Source: Telluribacter roseus (GTDB lineage: Bacteria; Bacteroidota; Bacteroidia; Cytophagales; Spirosomataceae). From it: a stretch of 64,000 nt of DNA. A program made the position numbers and the translations under genes. The notes beneath the pieces were generated by a model that searched no databases, was not told the DNA's origin, and saw nothing but the letters and a program-made list of their open reading frames with translations. Each line of letters begins with the position of its first letter. Positions within the stretch are counted from its first letter, which is position 1. Below are positions 29,014 through 34,747 of this stretch, in pieces. The stretch is from assembly GCF_017355915.2 (NCBI RefSeq), contig NZ_JAFEUV020000006.1, positions 62,001-126,000 on the forward strand, given 5' to 3'.

Positions 29014-30108
29014 TTAGAGTAGCTGAGCGCCCTGGATGGTCGTAAAGCCGTTGGTCTGCAGGCCGGTATTGGGGTCCGAGTTACACCCTCTGGCAAAGTC
29101 ATTGATGGCTTTCAGGAAGGGCTTGTCGTTGCCGAACCAGTCAAACCAGAAGCCCTGATTTTCCAGAAATCGCTTCAGGATAAAGCGCAGGATGTAGCGC
29201 AGGGGCTGGTCACAGTAGCGGGGATTAAACTTCGACACCACGCTACCCTTCATGAATCGGGGCGAGTAGTTTTCCTTGTTGTCCATGTACGCATACACGA
29301 TATTGCCCATGGTCTCGACGGGCGTCACTACTACGGCTACATTGTCAGACATACCCTCACTGGCAAAAAAGTCGAGCAGTTGGGAGTACCCAGTCTTGAG
29401 GCGGTCCAGTAAAAGAGAGGCTGTCGCCGGGTCACTCATCCACTTCTCACACTTCACCGGTACCAGCAGCACCATTTTCTTTTCATTCAGGTCTTTGTAC
29501 GCCTCTTTGAATATATTCAGCATACCTGCAGAGCCGTTTTTGCCGTTCTCGGGTATGTTGCGGTCGTTGTGATACAGCCAGGGGAATGATCTTCCGCCTT
29601 CTACCATCAGGGCGGGAGTATCAATGGCGATCATCGTCACCGAACACTCACGAATACGACGAATCACCTCCTTGGGGTTTTCCATCAGTTGCTCCCCCGG
29701 ATAGTCGCGGAGTACCAGTTGCACTTTCGGCTTTTTGTTTTTCTGACCCAGGTTAAAGCGGTACTCTATATCATTAAATCCAAATTTGCTGATCGATCCC
29801 CGGTTATTTTTGAATTTTTGGCCGAGATCAAATCTTTCCTTTGGCTTTGTGATGCTGTTGCTTTCTACAATACTGGTAGCCTCCACCACATCGGCGTTAT
29901 TGAGAGGCATCTGGGTGATGGTGTCAAAGGCAGTACGTAGCTGCGCGGCATGCCTTCCTAAGTTAGAGTCCGTTTCGCTTACGGGTGTTATCTCCAGATC
30001 GCTGTCTCTTCCAATAACCTGAGAAAACTGGCAGTAAATCGAAGAGAGCAGACTGGTTTTGCCGGCTCGGGCCGGACCTAATACAGTAATGTTAAATTCT
30101 CTGATCAT
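29014..30108 (-). CDS. TRAFAC-class GTPase-like P-loop protein (double-GTPase type)
   Basis: Soluble P-loop protein of 364 residues. Walker A/G1 is GPARAGKTS (11-19), the G3-like motif is RDYPGE (134-139), and the G4 position reads PVKCEKW (217-223) instead of NKxD. A long insert (about 40-125) separates G1 from G3. It recalls the 'DO-GTPase' (double-GTPase) domains described in comparative genomics of bacterial conflict systems; that link is from memory and unverified. It starts 6 bp after the stop of a second, unrelated GTPase (30115-32319), so the two are surely co-transcribed and may act together. No membrane segment or effector domain is visible. Confidence 0.75.
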   Translation of the reverse strand: MIREFNITVLGPARAGKTSLLSSIYCQFSQVIGRDSDLEITPVSETDSNLGRHAAQLRTAFDTITQMPLNNADVVEATSIVESNSITKPKERFDLGQKFKNNRGSISKFGFNDIEYRFNLGQKNKKPKVQLVLRDYPGEQLMENPKEVIRRIRECSVTMIAIDTPALMVEGGRSFPWLYHNDRNIPENGKNGSAGMLNIFKEAYKDLNEKKMVLLVPVKCEKWMSDPATASLLLDRLKTGYSQLLDFFASEGMSDNVAVVVTPVETMGNIVYAYMDNKENYSPRFMKGSVVSKFNPRYCDQPLRYILRFILKRFLENQGFWFDWFGNDKPFLKAINDFARGCNSDPNTGLQTNGFTTIQGAQLL

Positions 30109-30114
30109 GATGGG

Positions 30115-32319
30115 TTAGTTCTCAGTTAAGGCAATAGATTTATTCAGTGTCACTACGCGCTCAGTGATTTCGAGCCACTGCCAGCGTAATCCATTATTGA
30201 CCGACATCTCCTGGAAGTTCTCCGGCCATACTTTGGCCCGGTTTTCCATGTAGAATGCCTGCCATTCATCCATTGCATTTTCAGTCCGAAGTACCTTGTC
30301 CACAAATTGCTCCGCCGTAGCGAATATGGCCTGGTTGATTTCGATGGGCCAGTTTTCCAGCTCACCCTTCAGGCTTTCGAGCACCATTTTGTGCATGGCT
30401 ACGAGTATATCCCGTACCTCTTTGGCGGTAGGCTTCGCGCTCAGCTCGGCCCGACCGGTATCGGGGGTAAGGCAGTCAAGATGCCTCCGGAGGCGGTAGT
30501 AGAAGAAGCCCTGGTACGAAATACGGAAGTCGGCCAGCATCTCGAACGCCGGATGCAATACCGGGTACTGCTCTCTGAGCAGGGTAGTTACGTCCGTAAG
30601 GAAGGCGGTACCGGTATTGGCGCTCAGGTTTTTGAGGCGTCCCTGGTTTTCATTTTTCAGTACGTCGGCTATCTGTACCTTGATCAGCTCTACCGACCGG
30701 CTCAACCCTTCCTCCAGGTTTTCAAAATGGCGCGTCAGCTGGGTACGGCTGTGGTTAAAGTAAAACTCACAGGCCGACTTATACCCCCCCAGCAGGTTAC
30801 GGGTATCTTCTATCTGCTCAATGGTCGGAATACCCGAGTCCGCGTAGGAGTTTTCCTGCGCTCTGAGTACATACTCCGAGAAGAGCTCATTAGGGGTTTC
30901 GCGCTGATCGCGCAGCTCCTTCATCTGCTGCTCAAAGCCTGAGTACAATCTCCGTACGGAGTCTCTGAACAGCTTGTTGAATACGTTGAAGTTGAAAGGA
31001 GTAGATTCTGTAACGATGCCCAACGCGTCCTTGGCCTTGCTCATTTCGGCCCGGACCTGGTTGTGCAGTACCAGTAGCTTATCGTAAAGGGAGTTGACGT
31101 AGATCTGGTCTATTTTTTCAATAGTCTGCGTCAGGTAGTCAAGTACCCGCTGAAGTACGATCTCATTGACCTGTACGGCATTGGAACAATCGGCTACCAC
31201 CGCATCCGCAAACTTCATCTGTTCGGAGCGGTCTTCCAGCAATCGCTCACAGTTGCGCATATTGTCCTCATTGGGAGAGGATGAGCGAACGTGATTCATG
31301 ACCAGGAAGGTCCACAGGTCCAGTGGCAGCTCGGGCAGTACATTGCGGGTTGTATCGTACAGGTCTATTTCCTGCGGCTTCCATACTTCACCCAGGCCGG
31401 ATGGCTTCTTGATAAAGAGGATTATATCGACGTCATGGCTCAGGGTATTGATCAGCCAGTCTTCGGCCACCAGACCCGTATCGCCCAGACCGGGCATATC
31501 CACGAAGGCAATCTGTCCTACGTTTTCGTGGGGGAAGCTGCATATAATCCGGGCTTCTCTTACCGCCAGGAAGTTATAAAATACCCGCTGGCCCGTAATA
31601 TCGTCCTGAGCTACGTACTCCCGAACGTTATTGATGGGCACGAAGTGGGGCGACGACAGCGAGAGCAGTGGCTTGTATTCGGCCAGATGATTTTTGTAAA
31701 GATCCAGCTGGGCGTATTTTATTCTTGCGCTGAGGCTTTGCTGTTTATCCGCCGGGAGAAGGGGCAGGGGAGTAGCCTCAAACTCTTCCAGGGTAGCGGG
31801 CTTGTAGGACGAGTCCAGAAGCTCGGTATAGTAGGGAGCCAATACCTGATTGACAAACTCATCTTTAGTATAGAAGTGTATTTCGCCGTGCGGCTCCACG
31901 GAGGGGTTGTGGATAATAACACTACGGGTTCCGGTACAGTGTCCGAACGGACCAGCAGGGATCGCGTTATCATCCAGTCCTGAAAGGCTCCTGAGTAGCT
32001 GACTTTTTCCCTGACGGGCCAGACCTACCACTCCGATGTTGAGGGTCTTTCTGATAAAGCGGGAGTAATAACGGGAAAGATTCAGCTCCTGCTCCGCAAT
32101 ACTTCTTTTGATAGAGTCAAGATCAAGGCTTAGCAGGCGGTAGCGAATGGATTCATTATCTGTAGAGTTGTAAATTTCTTCACGCCTCTGCTCCATTACA
32201 TCAATGGCCGATCGTAGAGAAATCAGCTGCTGCCGGATAGTACTTAGTTTTTTTGCGGTGAACTGCCTTTTCGCAACAATAGCATTGACTTGTTGCTCAC
32301 GAACCAACGTAGGAATCAT
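30115..32319 (-). CDS. Large dynamin-like GTPase with helical C-terminus
   Basis: GTPase of 734 residues from the ATG at 32319 (a TTG at 32397 would add 26). A charged N-terminal helical hairpin (about 10-90) precedes the GTPase domain: G1 GLARQGKS (99-106), a G2-like Thr in CTGT (128-131), and G3 DMPGLGDTG (274-282). The G4 position reads VMNHV instead of a T/NKxD motif. The second half (about 400-730) is almost wholly alpha-helical, as in dynamin stalks. There is no obvious transmembrane hairpin. It is the first gene of a two-gene operon with a smaller GTPase. A membrane-remodelling or defence role is an inference from architecture only. Confidence 0.75.
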   Translation of the reverse strand: MIPTLVREQQVNAIVAKRQFTAKKLSTIRQQLISLRSAIDVMEQRREEIYNSTDNESIRYRLLSLDLDSIKRSIAEQELNLSRYYSRFIRKTLNIGVVGLARQGKSQLLRSLSGLDDNAIPAGPFGHCTGTRSVIIHNPSVEPHGEIHFYTKDEFVNQVLAPYYTELLDSSYKPATLEEFEATPLPLLPADKQQSLSARIKYAQLDLYKNHLAEYKPLLSLSSPHFVPINNVREYVAQDDITGQRVFYNFLAVREARIICSFPHENVGQIAFVDMPGLGDTGLVAEDWLINTLSHDVDIILFIKKPSGLGEVWKPQEIDLYDTTRNVLPELPLDLWTFLVMNHVRSSSPNEDNMRNCERLLEDRSEQMKFADAVVADCSNAVQVNEIVLQRVLDYLTQTIEKIDQIYVNSLYDKLLVLHNQVRAEMSKAKDALGIVTESTPFNFNVFNKLFRDSVRRLYSGFEQQMKELRDQRETPNELFSEYVLRAQENSYADSGIPTIEQIEDTRNLLGGYKSACEFYFNHSRTQLTRHFENLEEGLSRSVELIKVQIADVLKNENQGRLKNLSANTGTAFLTDVTTLLREQYPVLHPAFEMLADFRISYQGFFYYRLRRHLDCLTPDTGRAELSAKPTAKEVRDILVAMHKMVLESLKGELENWPIEINQAIFATAEQFVDKVLRTENAMDEWQAFYMENRAKVWPENFQEMSVNNGLRWQWLEITERVVTLNKSIALTEN

Positions 32320-32534
32320 CAAGTATATAGAGTTAGGTTTATATGGTGCAAAATAGTGGGCTGGGCCATGTGTATAGTTCTTTAAATTAGTAGCCAATAC
32401 TCCATATACTAACGATATGCACTACAATTCTCCAAAGAATCATGTTACCTGCTGTCACTCTGCTACCAACAACCATGCCATTTTTTTAAAACCTATTGGC
32501 TCTTTTAACGCTCTGTGTAGCTGAATGGGTTGAT

Positions 32535-32748: not shown

Positions 32749-33954
32749 TTAAATCAGTTCAATGTAGGTTCTTTTACCGATCCTGATTTTGGTGTTGGGT
32801 TTCAGTTCTATGAGCTGATTGGGATCACTGGCCCTGACCGTATCTACCTGTATGGCTCCTCCCGCAATCATTCTTCGGATGGAGGATCTGGTTTCTTCAC
32901 TTTTCAGGCGATGGCATAGTTCGATCAGAGGTATACGTTCCGAGGCAGATCCAATGGAGCCGATGGCGACTGGTTCGAAGCTTTTGTCATCGAATCCCTT
33001 GTTCTGGAACTGGTTGATGAAGTACTGCTCCGCGGCTTCGGCACTTTCTTTATCGTGGTACTGCCGGATGATATTCCGGGCGATGGCCTTCTTGATGTTC
33101 ATGGGGTTTTCGCCGGCCGCCAGTTGATCGCGGAGTACCTGCTTCTCCTGCGGGCCGAAGTCGGTAGCCAGGTCCAGGTACTCTGCTATGAGCTCGTCGG
33201 GCATGGACATCGTCTTGCCGAACATGTCGTTGGGGGCGTCGGTGAGGCCGATGATGTTGTTAAGCGACTTGCTCATTTTTTCTTTCCCATCCAGCCCTCT
33301 GAGCAGGGGCATGCACATCACGATCTGAGGGTCCAGGCCGTGGCTTTCCTGTAGCTGCCTTCCCATGGTACAGTTAAAGAGCTGATCCGTTCCCCCCATT
33401 TCGATGTCGCACTGAATATGCACCGAATCAAAGCCCTGCAGGATGGGGTACATCAGCTCGTGCATGGCAATGGGGGTATTCTCGGTAAAGCGCTTGTTGA
33501 AGTCATTGCGGTGCAGCAGCTGCGCTACCGTCACCCTGGACAAGAGCTGAATGATCTCCGAAAATCCCAGACCATCCAGCCAGTCGGAGTTGAACCGGAT
33601 CTGGCACCGGTCCACATCTATGATCCTGGAAAGCTGCCTGATGTACGTATCGGCATTAAACAGGACCTCTTCCTGGCTAAGTGGCTTGCGGCTCTTATTC
33701 TTGCCGGTAGGGTCGCCGATGCGGGCCGTGAAGCTGCCCACAATGATCACGATCTGGTGCCCCAGGTCCTGAAACTGTTTCAGTTTCTTAAGCACCACGG
33801 CGTGCCCCAGGTGCAGATCCGGGGCGGTAGGGTCAAAGCCCAGCTTGATCACCAGTTTTCGGTTTTCGATTTCGGCCTGTCTGATTTTCTGTTCCAGACC
33901 GTTCTGCGGGAGAATAATCTCCACGTTTGCTTGTAGTTGTTCTAAGTGGTTCAT
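32749..33954 (-). CDS. tyrS: Tyrosine--tRNA ligase
   Basis: Class I tyrosyl-tRNA synthetase, cytoplasmic dimer, 401 residues. It has the ATP-binding HLGH motif (48-51) after LGFDPTAPDL, the KMSKS loop (EKMSKSLNN) and a C-terminal S4 RNA-binding domain (from about 338, RRMIAGGAIQVD). The length and HLGH form fit the TyrZ-like bacterial branch. The ATG lies only 14 bp after the U-tract of an intrinsic terminator, which in turn follows a short ORF with three Tyr codons in a row. Expression is thus probably controlled by tyrosine-dependent transcription attenuation (see the leader entries). Confidence 0.97.
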   Translation of the reverse strand: MNHLEQLQANVEIILPQNGLEQKIRQAEIENRKLVIKLGFDPTAPDLHLGHAVVLKKLKQFQDLGHQIVIIVGSFTARIGDPTGKNKSRKPLSQEEVLFNADTYIRQLSRIIDVDRCQIRFNSDWLDGLGFSEIIQLLSRVTVAQLLHRNDFNKRFTENTPIAMHELMYPILQGFDSVHIQCDIEMGGTDQLFNCTMGRQLQESHGLDPQIVMCMPLLRGLDGKEKMSKSLNNIIGLTDAPNDMFGKTMSMPDELIAEYLDLATDFGPQEKQVLRDQLAAGENPMNIKKAIARNIIRQYHDKESAEAAEQYFINQFQNKGFDDKSFEPVAIGSIGSASERIPLIELCHRLKSEETRSSIRRMIAGGAIQVDTVRASDPNQLIELKPNTKIRIGKRTYIELI

Positions 33955-33968
33955 GATGGTTAGAAAAT

Positions 33969-34001
33969 AAAAAAGCCCCGAACAATGGGATTGTTCGGGG
34001 C
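33969..34001 (-). terminator. Attenuator terminator ahead of tyrS
   Basis: On the minus strand GCCCCGAACAA (34001-33991) pairs perfectly with TTGTTCGGGGC (33985-33975) around a 5-base loop and is followed by six T residues. It lies between the leader peptide and tyrS. Its 5' arm can alternatively pair with a segment inside the leader ORF. Confidence 0.88.
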
Positions 34002-34037
34002 CTGTGTTAGGTATGTAAGTCTTATTTATTGCAGCAG

Positions 34038-34136
34038 CTATTCCTTAAAGCACAAGACATACCTCTCCCGAACCATTACCGCGTAGTAATAATTATTGAA
34101 GAAGGGGAGGCGTAGTATGTTGTTTAAGTGTTTCAT
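34038..34136 (-). CDS. Putative tyrosine leader peptide of tyrS (32 aa)
   Basis: Short ORF from the ATG at 34136, too short for routine gene calling. It encodes a Tyr-Tyr-Tyr run (residues 16-18; codons TAT TAC TAC at 34091-34083) and one more Tyr at residue 26, preceded by PFFNN. A perfect -7 box ends 7 bp upstream of its ATG, so the mRNA would be leaderless or almost so. Its stop codon is followed after 36 bp by an intrinsic terminator and then tyrS. The peptide itself is probably without function; its translation would report charged tRNA-Tyr supply. Confidence 0.75.
   Translation of the reverse strand: MKHLNNILRLPFFNNYYYAVMVRERYVLCFKE
34062..34110 (-). promoter_or_regulatory. Attenuator segments 1 and 2 (sequestering hairpin and antiterminator) of tyrS
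   Basis: Segment 1, CCTCCCC (34110-34104), can pair with GGGAGAGG (34069-34062) and loops out the Tyr codons. Segment 2, GTTCGGG (34073-34067), overlaps that pairing and is exactly complementary to CCCGAAC (33999-33993) in the terminator's 5' arm. A ribosome stalled at the Tyr codons would cover segment 1 and free segment 2 to block the terminator. Confidence 0.65.
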
Positions 34137-34143
34137 TTCGATG

Positions 34144-34151
34144 CAAATATA
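34144..34151 (-). promoter_or_regulatory. -7 element of the tyrS leader promoter
   Basis: Minus-strand TATATTTG is a perfect TAnnTTTG match ending 7 bp before the leader-peptide ATG. A -33 TTG at the usual spacing was not seen. Confidence 0.6.
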
Positions 34152-34228: not shown

Positions 34229-34747
34229 TTAAACGTGCTGGTCAATCAGGATCTGATTTCCATCCGGGTCCACTACGATCAGGCTACCGGGGCCGGTGGT
34301 TTTTTCATCGGCTTCGGATAGGGGTTTGATCCCCTTGCTTTTCAGGTGGCGCTGTATGGCCCGTACATCGTTATACTTCTCTACCTTGGCGGCGTTCTCG
34401 TCCCAGCCGGGGTTAAATGTCAGGATGGTTTTGTCGAACATGCCATGGAACAGGCCGATCAGGGCGTTGCCGTTCTTCATGATGTAGTAATTCTGCTCCG
34501 GTGCACCCGCAAAAGCCGTAAAGCCGAGGTTCTCGTAAAACTGCTTCGAAGCGTTCAGGTCCTTTACATTCAGGCTCACCGAAAACGCACCCAAAGGCAT
34601 ACCATTCGCCATCTGGTTGGTTGGGGCTTCGGTACCTGGCTGTTGCGTCTCCTGCGTGGGCGAGGCCGCCAGTTTGAGGTTTGCTAATCCAATACCGGCA
34701 AGAGTCACACCGATTCTCGTCAGCCAGTTTCGTCTGTTTTGTCCCAT
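34229..34747 (-). CDS. VOC-superfamily (glyoxalase/bleomycin-resistance fold) protein, probably exported
   Basis: Protein of 172 residues. The N-terminus (RRNWLTRIGVTLAGIGLANL) has paired arginines followed by a hydrophobic stretch, as in a Tat or Sec signal, and then a Gln/Thr/Pro-rich linker. The VOC domain starts near 52 with FSVSLNVKDLNASKQFYENLGF and ends with GSLIVVDPDGNQILIDQH, whose final acidic/His region is typical of metal-binding VOC folds. The substrate is unknown. It ends about 80 bp upstream of the tyrS leader promoter. Confidence 0.83.
   Translation of the reverse strand: MGQNRRNWLTRIGVTLAGIGLANLKLAASPTQETQQPGTEAPTNQMANGMPLGAFSVSLNVKDLNASKQFYENLGFTAFAGAPEQNYYIMKNGNALIGLFHGMFDKTILTFNPGWDENAAKVEKYNDVRAIQRHLKSKGIKPLSEADEKTTGPGSLIVVDPDGNQILIDQHV

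Follow-up and report, generated by a model that had tools for sequence, protein, structure and literature searches.

A predicted tyrosine leader-peptide attenuator with a conserved peptide precedes an auxiliary tyrosyl-tRNA synthetase gene in Telluribacter roseus and other Bacteroidota

Introduction

A tyrS gene of Telluribacter roseus is preceded by a short open reading frame (ORF) with a run of tyrosine codons and by a hairpin, which raises the question of whether these elements form a regulatory switch and what kind of tyrosyl-tRNA synthetase (TyrRS) such a switch would control. The original prediction, drawn from a window of 64,000 nucleotides (the whole stretch of DNA that was analysed), proposed a trp-type switch with the alternative RNA pairings 1:2, 2:3 and 3:4. 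Attenuators of this type are exemplified by the E. coli trp, his and pheST leaders. Vecchione and Sello are said to have described in 2010 an auxiliary, antibiotic-resistant TrpRS of Streptomyces that is under ribosome-mediated attenuation. Attenuation of synthetase operons was reportedly also treated by Lopatovskaya et al. in 2010, in work that may contain related predictions. The accessible parts of other reports place candidate attenuators upstream of the Streptomyces genes trpS2 and leuS (PMC1262725) and His leader peptides ahead of hisS* and hisZ in bacilli (PMC2965389). For Flavobacterium psychrophilum, the accessible part of one study gives clues to leader-peptide attenuation before amino-acid biosynthesis operons, as well as structured 5' UTRs at synthetase genes (PMC9723704).

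Results and Discussion

Parts of the tyrS leader

Direct reading confirmed the coordinates of the parts on which the original prediction was built, namely the perfect -7 box, the 32-codon ORF with TAT TAC TAC, the complementary GTTCGGG and CCCGAAC, the hairpin with six U and the tyrS ATG 14 bp further on. The features of the locus are as follows:

34151-34144, minus strand: -7 promoter box TATATTTG of the TAnnTTTG type; the leader ATG follows after 7 nt
34136-34038, minus strand: near-leaderless leader ORF of 32 codons, MKHLNNILRLPFFNNYYYAVMVRERYVLCFKE*, with its ATG at 34136
34111-34104 and 34094-34085, minus strand: segment 1, 5' strand of the protector hairpin, with an overlap into the Tyr codons (from the fold)
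34110-34104, minus strand: CCTCCCC, inside segment 1 (from the sequence)
34091-34083, minus strand: putative Tyr sensor codons TAT TAC TAC, leader codons 16-18 (from the sequence)
34080-34061, minus strand: 3' side of the protector hairpin, which includes segment 2 (from the fold)
34073-34067, minus strand: segment 2, GTTCGGG, the antiterminator core, 12 nt past codon 17
34064-34059, minus strand: AGGTAT, 5' side of the outer extension of the antiterminator, paired with 34014-34009 in a fold ending before the terminator 3' arm
34014-34009, minus strand: ATACCT, 3' side of the outer extension, partner of 34064-34059 in the same fold
34003-33973, minus strand: stem of the predicted intrinsic terminator, 14 pairs (inverted repeat)
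33999-33993, minus strand: segment 3, CCCGAAC, partner of segment 2 or of the terminator 3' arm (from pairing in the alignment)
33974-33969, minus strand: terminator U tract, six T (from the sequence)
33954-32749, minus strand: auxiliary tyrS, 401 aa, with its ATG at 33954, 14 bp beyond the U tract
Ending at 34229, same strand as tyrS: upstream gene of the VOC family

Terminator-like patterns taken alone are common enough, with six in 4 kb against 4.1 +/- 2.0 expected. A composite scan of both strands looked for TAnnTTT, a start codon 5-11 nt on, an ORF of 8-50 codons and a terminator, and this combination of box, start, short ORF and terminator occurs at one place in the 64-kb window, which is the tyrS leader. 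Over the 571,839 bases of loci L003-L082 the same scan found 70 places, 69 of them tyrS leaders spread over 69 of the 80 loci and one of another kind. The fold of the window leader RNA is better than that of 200 out of 200 dinucleotide shuffles (z -4.18).

The window gene encodes an auxiliary TyrRS

The product of the window gene matches TIGR00234 (E 6.8e-101) as well as PF00579 and PF01479, and the motifs HLGH and KMSKS can be recognized in it by eye. The same genome encodes a second, housekeeping TyrRS (at G000:C17) of 433 aa, which is 31% identical. A housekeeping enzyme is present alongside the auxiliary one in all 36 carrier genomes tested, of which 28 come from the best 80 of 209 matches and 8 are others; in one of them, G375, the housekeeping match lies in two pieces. 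The original prediction was right in placing a tyrS behind the leader, but this tyrS is not the sole one; judged by sequence comparison, it is an auxiliary (spare) TyrRS gene. This auxiliary status, the conservation of the leader peptide and the horizontal spread described below were absent from that prediction and are added here.

A conserved leader peptide

We scanned 116 loci with the pattern M-K-x-L-x-x-I-L-x-L-P-F-x-x-x-Y-Y, variants allowed. These loci comprise 84 with the pattern, the housekeeping locus L002, the variant leaders L084-L087 and 27 distant TyrRS genes. The 84 include the window itself, 80 of the 84 are the highest-ranking of 209 matches, and at least one pair among them (L029 and L089) apparently belongs to the same genome. 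The conserved peptide MKxLNxILRLPFFxxYY thus precedes 84 of the 88 auxiliary tyrS loci, and in a later check set it was found in 26 of 27 loci, 7 of the 27 having the same first 60 nt as an earlier leader. Tyr occupies codons 16 and 17 in 34/34 non-redundant leaders and codon 18 in 18 of them. The Tyr run and the terminator, whose conservation in relatives had been set beforehand as one test of the original prediction, are both kept.

The N-terminus of the leader evolves in the manner of a protein. For codons 2-15 the pN/pS ratio is 0.20 (0.199, as compared with 0.203 for tyrS itself), for codons 7-13 it is 0.09 and for codons 18-20 it rises to 0.67. Since codons 9-15 are also constrained by RNA pairing, the cleanest evidence for selection on the peptide comes from codons 2-8, which lie outside the protector hairpin and have a pN/pS of 0.187 in frame versus 0.895 and 1.41 in the +1 and +2 frames; on this evidence peptide-level selection on the N-terminus is clear for these codons. 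The best conserved codons (4, 5, 7 and 8, chosen after the alignment was viewed) have a ratio of 0.074. Codons 9-15, which lie closest to the predicted stall site, are also conserved, yet RNA pairing ties them as well. Mean identity over residues 1-17, with the fixed Met and Tyr counted, is 82%, versus 75% for the TyrRS of the same set. Conservation of the peptide exceeds what a simple codon counter would need, and this suggests that the nascent chain matters.

Two individual leaders depart from the common form. In L182 (G1347) the leader is degenerate: its Tyr stretch is one base shorter than that in L030, so that the second Tyr and the downstream frame are lost and a single Tyr is left, with segment 2 and the terminator kept. 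In L203 (G1535) the leader peptide is retained (MKFLENILRLPFFSTYYY), segment 2 departs from the GYYCGG form, and a shifted GGGGCT may, by eye, pair with the 5' arm.

The remaining four of the 88 auxiliary tyrS loci (L084-L087), from two other families of the order to which T. roseus belongs, carry a different Tyr-rich leader that lacks LPFF and holds 5-6 Tyr codons. The distance from the Tyr run to a GGG-type segment is 13 nt in three of these leaders and, as read by eye, about 14 nt in the fourth; the antiterminator of the variant leaders was assessed by eye only. These variants suggest that the attenuator peptide may have arisen or been rebuilt more than once. In L086 (G342) and L087 (G375) the auxiliary tyrS is apparently shortened or interrupted, with a match limited to residues 1-290 and with one TAG and one TAA inside, and the Tyr leader is still present; these genes are perhaps decaying copies.

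Competing RNA pairings

We evaluated the pairings in an alignment of 34 leaders that are less than 90% alike. The terminator is paired in 99.3% of cells and has five pairs changed on both sides; on four measures none of 500 shuffles matched it, and on a fifth 46 of them did. The antiterminator is paired in 94.5% of cells, one of its pairs being UA in 20 leaders and CG in 14 with no exception, and its end pair (columns 73/147) is open in 13 of the 34. Its paired fraction and its covariation score are matched by 0/500 shuffles. There is only one doubly changed pair in the antiterminator and 480 of the 500 shuffles also reach one, so its support comes largely from complementarity and spacing. When the terminator 3' arm is left out of the fold, segment 2 is paired to the 5' arm at all six positions in 34/34 leaders, a result favoured by the choice of the folded stretch (segment 2 to the 5' arm), which was set to end at the arm. 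The mean z of these folds is -2.1, and 32 of the 34 lie below -1 (the exceptions are L030 and L069). The original prediction had equated segment 2 with GTTCGGG, and this heptamer stands as the antiterminator core, but in the window the pairing extends further, to 34064-34059 with 34014-34009.

The protector helix (1:2) is paired in 93.1% of cells in the same 34 leaders, and its covariation score is above that of 500/500 shuffles; it has two doubly changed pairs, a number reached by 192 of the 500, and many of its pairs are G-U. The helix was also compared with codon shuffles that preserve the peptide. The window protector fold has an energy of -16.6 kcal/mol, and 3% of 300 such shuffles are as stable. 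Across the 34 leaders a median of 1.5% of codon shuffles fold as well; fewer than 20% do so in 28 leaders, and six show no clear excess. CCTCCCC, proposed as segment 1, does pair, but the segment is larger than was proposed, since it comprises 34111-34104 together with 34094-34085 at the Tyr codons, with 34080-34061 as partner.

An automatic test for segment 2, the 5' arm and the 3' arm was passed by 22 of 27 later loci. The test covered 26 of the 27, all but L182; the four that missed are L179 and L185 (wrong upstream match taken by the script), L164 (imperfect 3' arm) and L203 (segment 2 shifted).

Spacing and a near-leaderless start

The end of codon 17 and segment 2 are separated by 12, 13 or 15 nt in 84/84 leaders and by 16 nt in one later leader, L191. 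Segment 2 occupies two different reading frames across the 84 leaders; because the gap is fixed in spite of this, it is the RNA position that is held there and not the peptide. Given the size of the ribosome footprint, the spacing fits a ribosome whose A site holds a Tyr codon and whose leading edge lies just short of segment 2.

The upstream end of the leader is also distinctive. In 75 of the 84 leaders a TAnnTTT box is found no more than 22 nt from the start codon, versus 1.0% of control windows inside tyrS, and the longer form TAnnTTTG occurs in this range in 50 of the 84, versus 0.4% of control windows. In the 75 leaders with a visible TAnnTTT, the box is 5-10 nt from the start codon. Transcription usually starts a few nucleotides after a -7 box, which would leave a very short 5' UTR of just a few nucleotides. 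Translation in Bacteroidota initiates largely without Shine-Dalgarno sequences. No clear -33 element was seen by eye 19-21 bp upstream of the window -7 box.

Restriction to auxiliary tyrS genes

The attenuator was found at none of 30 housekeeping tyrS genes. Under a strict scan, 0/30 of these have a terminator and 2/30 have some ORF with YY; the same scan at auxiliary tyrS gives a terminator in 71/84 and a YY ORF in 84/84. Upstream of 27 distant TyrRS genes (at most 47% identity), neither the peptide (0/27) nor a terminator within 150 nt (0/27) was found; two members of this set, L105 and L116, carry a short upstream ORF with YY that is unrelated.

Additionally, a model of the leader was searched against 24 genomes. 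In 18 of them there is exactly one strong match (E <= 4.1e-9), adjoining the auxiliary tyrS, and every other match has E >= 0.04. Two of the four variant-leader genomes give no match and the other two weak ones (E >= 0.37), and no match is found in two genomes without the auxiliary gene. With strict filters, the model finds one match in 395 class genomes, which is the window; this is a count of leader matches rather than of carriers of the auxiliary gene.

A separate search of 20 genomes with the N-terminal pattern gave 16 matches, 12 of which are tyrS leaders and four lie elsewhere; the backward control gave one. The other four are one gene of 318 codons and three short ORFs (20-28 codons) that lack a run of Tyr codons, and therefore no general family of leaders sharing this N-terminus is apparent in the 20 genomes.

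Proposed mechanism and alternatives

The leader combines the elements expected of an attenuator as judged from sequence: a short ORF with cognate codons, a terminator, an antiterminator that would exclude it, a protector hairpin, and stall codons in a suitable position. Conservation, covariation, fixed spacing and the synonymous-codon test all support the trp-type switch of the original prediction. We conclude that the locus is most probably a ribosome-mediated transcription attenuator of an auxiliary, emergency TyrRS. In this mechanism RNA polymerase would initiate a few nucleotides from the leader ATG, and a ribosome would translate the leader ORF behind it. When Tyr-tRNA is charged, the ribosome would proceed and either cover segment 2 or leave it in the 1:2 protector hairpin; with segment 2 occupied, the 3:4 terminator would form and tyrS would be off. 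When Tyr-tRNA is uncharged, whether through starvation or because the housekeeping TyrRS is failing or inhibited, the ribosome would stall at Tyr codons 16-18 and melt segment 1, while its leading edge would stop just short of segment 2 and leave it free. Pairing of segments 2 and 3 would then keep the terminator from forming, and the spare TyrRS would be made.

The conserved peptide may aid stalling. A more elaborate version of the mechanism, which we put forward tentatively and consider possible at best, is a near-leaderless sensor with two inputs, in which the Tyr codons are joined by an ILRLPFF nascent chain that makes the ribosome more responsive to slow decoding of Tyr codons, and which together with its TyrRS would constitute a one-gene, mobile, inducible rescue module against a natural inhibitor or a toxic tyrosine analogue acting on the housekeeping TyrRS.

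In TnaC and similar peptides the nascent chain stalls the ribosome upon binding of a small molecule. The leader might likewise act as an arrest peptide, with nascent ILRLPFF rather than Tyr-tRNA charging stalling the ribosome near codons 16-17, perhaps once a small molecule such as tyrosine, one of its analogues or an antibiotic is bound, and with the RNA part operating as in attenuation. Such a switch would account for the in-frame constraint on codons 2-8 and for a peptide that is more conserved than the enzyme behind it, and in a ribosome paused with its A site on codon 16 or 17 the peptidyl-transferase centre would be 2-8 residues away from residues 8-13. However, the variant (type II) leaders do without the peptide and still have Tyr codons at similar spacing, and tyrS itself shows practically the same pN/pS as codons 2-15. 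Moreover, an invariant Tyr at codons 16-17 and a gene product that charges tRNA with tyrosine agree with plain sensing of charging, and we regard arrest by the peptide as unlikely. The hairpin might instead be just the 3' terminator of the VOC-family gene, with the short ORF incidental. Although that gene ends nearby on the same strand, the -7 box sits between it and the hairpin, and the ORF, Tyr codons, antiterminator and spacing are kept across genera while the ten largest clusters of neighbouring genes are confined to Chryseobacterium, which makes this reading highly improbable. That a tRNA-binding T-box or another riboswitch controls tyrS with the ORF untranslated, as the accessible part of one report describes T-box control for tyrS in Gram-positives, for example Enterococcus durans (PMC3315439), is scarcely credible here, as an Rfam scan of the whole window gives no match at gathering score, T-box model included, and the leader is about 180 nt long with a coding pattern.

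Comparison with known systems

As in the E. coli trp, his and pheST leaders, an ORF with cognate codons, exclusive 1:2, 2:3 and 3:4 pairings, an intrinsic terminator and a cognate gene downstream are present or predicted. In contrast to those leaders, the tyrS leader would sense Tyr, has almost no predicted 5' UTR, places segment 1 over the sensor codons, encodes a peptide conserved across orders, and precedes a gene for a spare TyrRS. It resembles the reported Streptomyces TrpRS system in coupling a second aminoacyl-tRNA synthetase gene with predicted ribosome-mediated attenuation; the enzyme, amino acid and phylum are different, and drug resistance is a feature reported for the TrpRS. A switch attached to a spare synthetase with apparent transfers between orders recalls that drug-resistant TrpRS and points to natural pressure on TyrRS.

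Predicted leader-peptide control of synthetases and their duplicates is likewise shared with Streptomyces trpS2 and leuS and with hisS* and hisZ of bacilli, and the accessible parts of these two reports name neither a Tyr leader nor a case in Bacteroidota (PMC1262725, PMC2965389). The Flavobacterium psychrophilum clues come from the same phylum, and the accessible part of that report names no tyrS, auxiliary TyrRS or peptide (PMC9723704). A second tyrS-like gene that rises when tyrosine is short is also described in the accessible part of the report on Gram-positive tyrS (PMC3315439); the T-box there senses uncharged tRNA directly, whereas the sensor of the Bacteroidota tyrS would be the translating ribosome.

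A search of the open literature found nothing combining the terms 'Bacteroidota', 'leader peptide' and 'attenuation', and by titles and abstract openings no Tyr leader peptide before tyrS was found. The kind of attenuator is known, and the Tyr version, the spare enzyme, the conserved peptide, the near-leaderless start and the spread were not found in the open literature. The locus would supply a complete and conserved leader-peptide attenuator in Bacteroidota, for which the accessible portion of the literature gives such switches only as clues. Its conservation at the peptide level raises a testable question, namely whether nascent chains help classical attenuators, and the leader could possibly be used as a tyrosine-starvation reporter for flavobacteria.

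Distribution and horizontal transfer

The auxiliary type is rare and patchily distributed. Counting matches at E <= 1e-100, with the genome at the centre of each search included, it occurs in 2/200 genomes of the T. roseus family and 5/291 of its order, in 3/117 of the family of Chitinophaga sp. YR627, in 24/148 of family f25 and in 3/199 of the family of Flavobacterium sp. HSC-32F16. The one other species of the T. roseus genus included in the search gave no auxiliary TyrRS match. In a sample of the phylum, 187 of 395 genomes have a TyrRS match, and among the matches listed identity is at most 47% except for T. roseus itself and two f25 genomes.

In a TyrRS tree with good support at 18 of its 43 inner branches, the window enzyme clusters with two Chitinophagaceae (100/99), away from G094, a member of its own family, and a Sphingobacterium enzyme joins that of Vaginella (99/96). 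These groupings cross taxonomy and imply transfer between orders. The unit of attenuator and tyrS therefore seems to have moved horizontally across distant Bacteroidota. Plasmid searches gave 13 records at E <= 1e-60, all below 60% identity and none from Bacteroidota by genus.

Neighbouring genes

The ten largest clusters of shared neighbouring genes all lie within Chryseobacterium. No tRNA gene was found in the window. In the window, two adjacent minus-strand genes (29014-30108 and 30115-32397) are located downstream of tyrS. PADLOC gave nothing convincing for these two genes and the TyrRS; the product of one of the two, 760 aa long, matches nothing in Pfam and has just a weak hit in PADLOC (E 0.0028). 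The other has a match to the DO-GTPase2 domain (PF19993, E 2e-6), and the two genes possibly constitute a double-GTPase conflict system.
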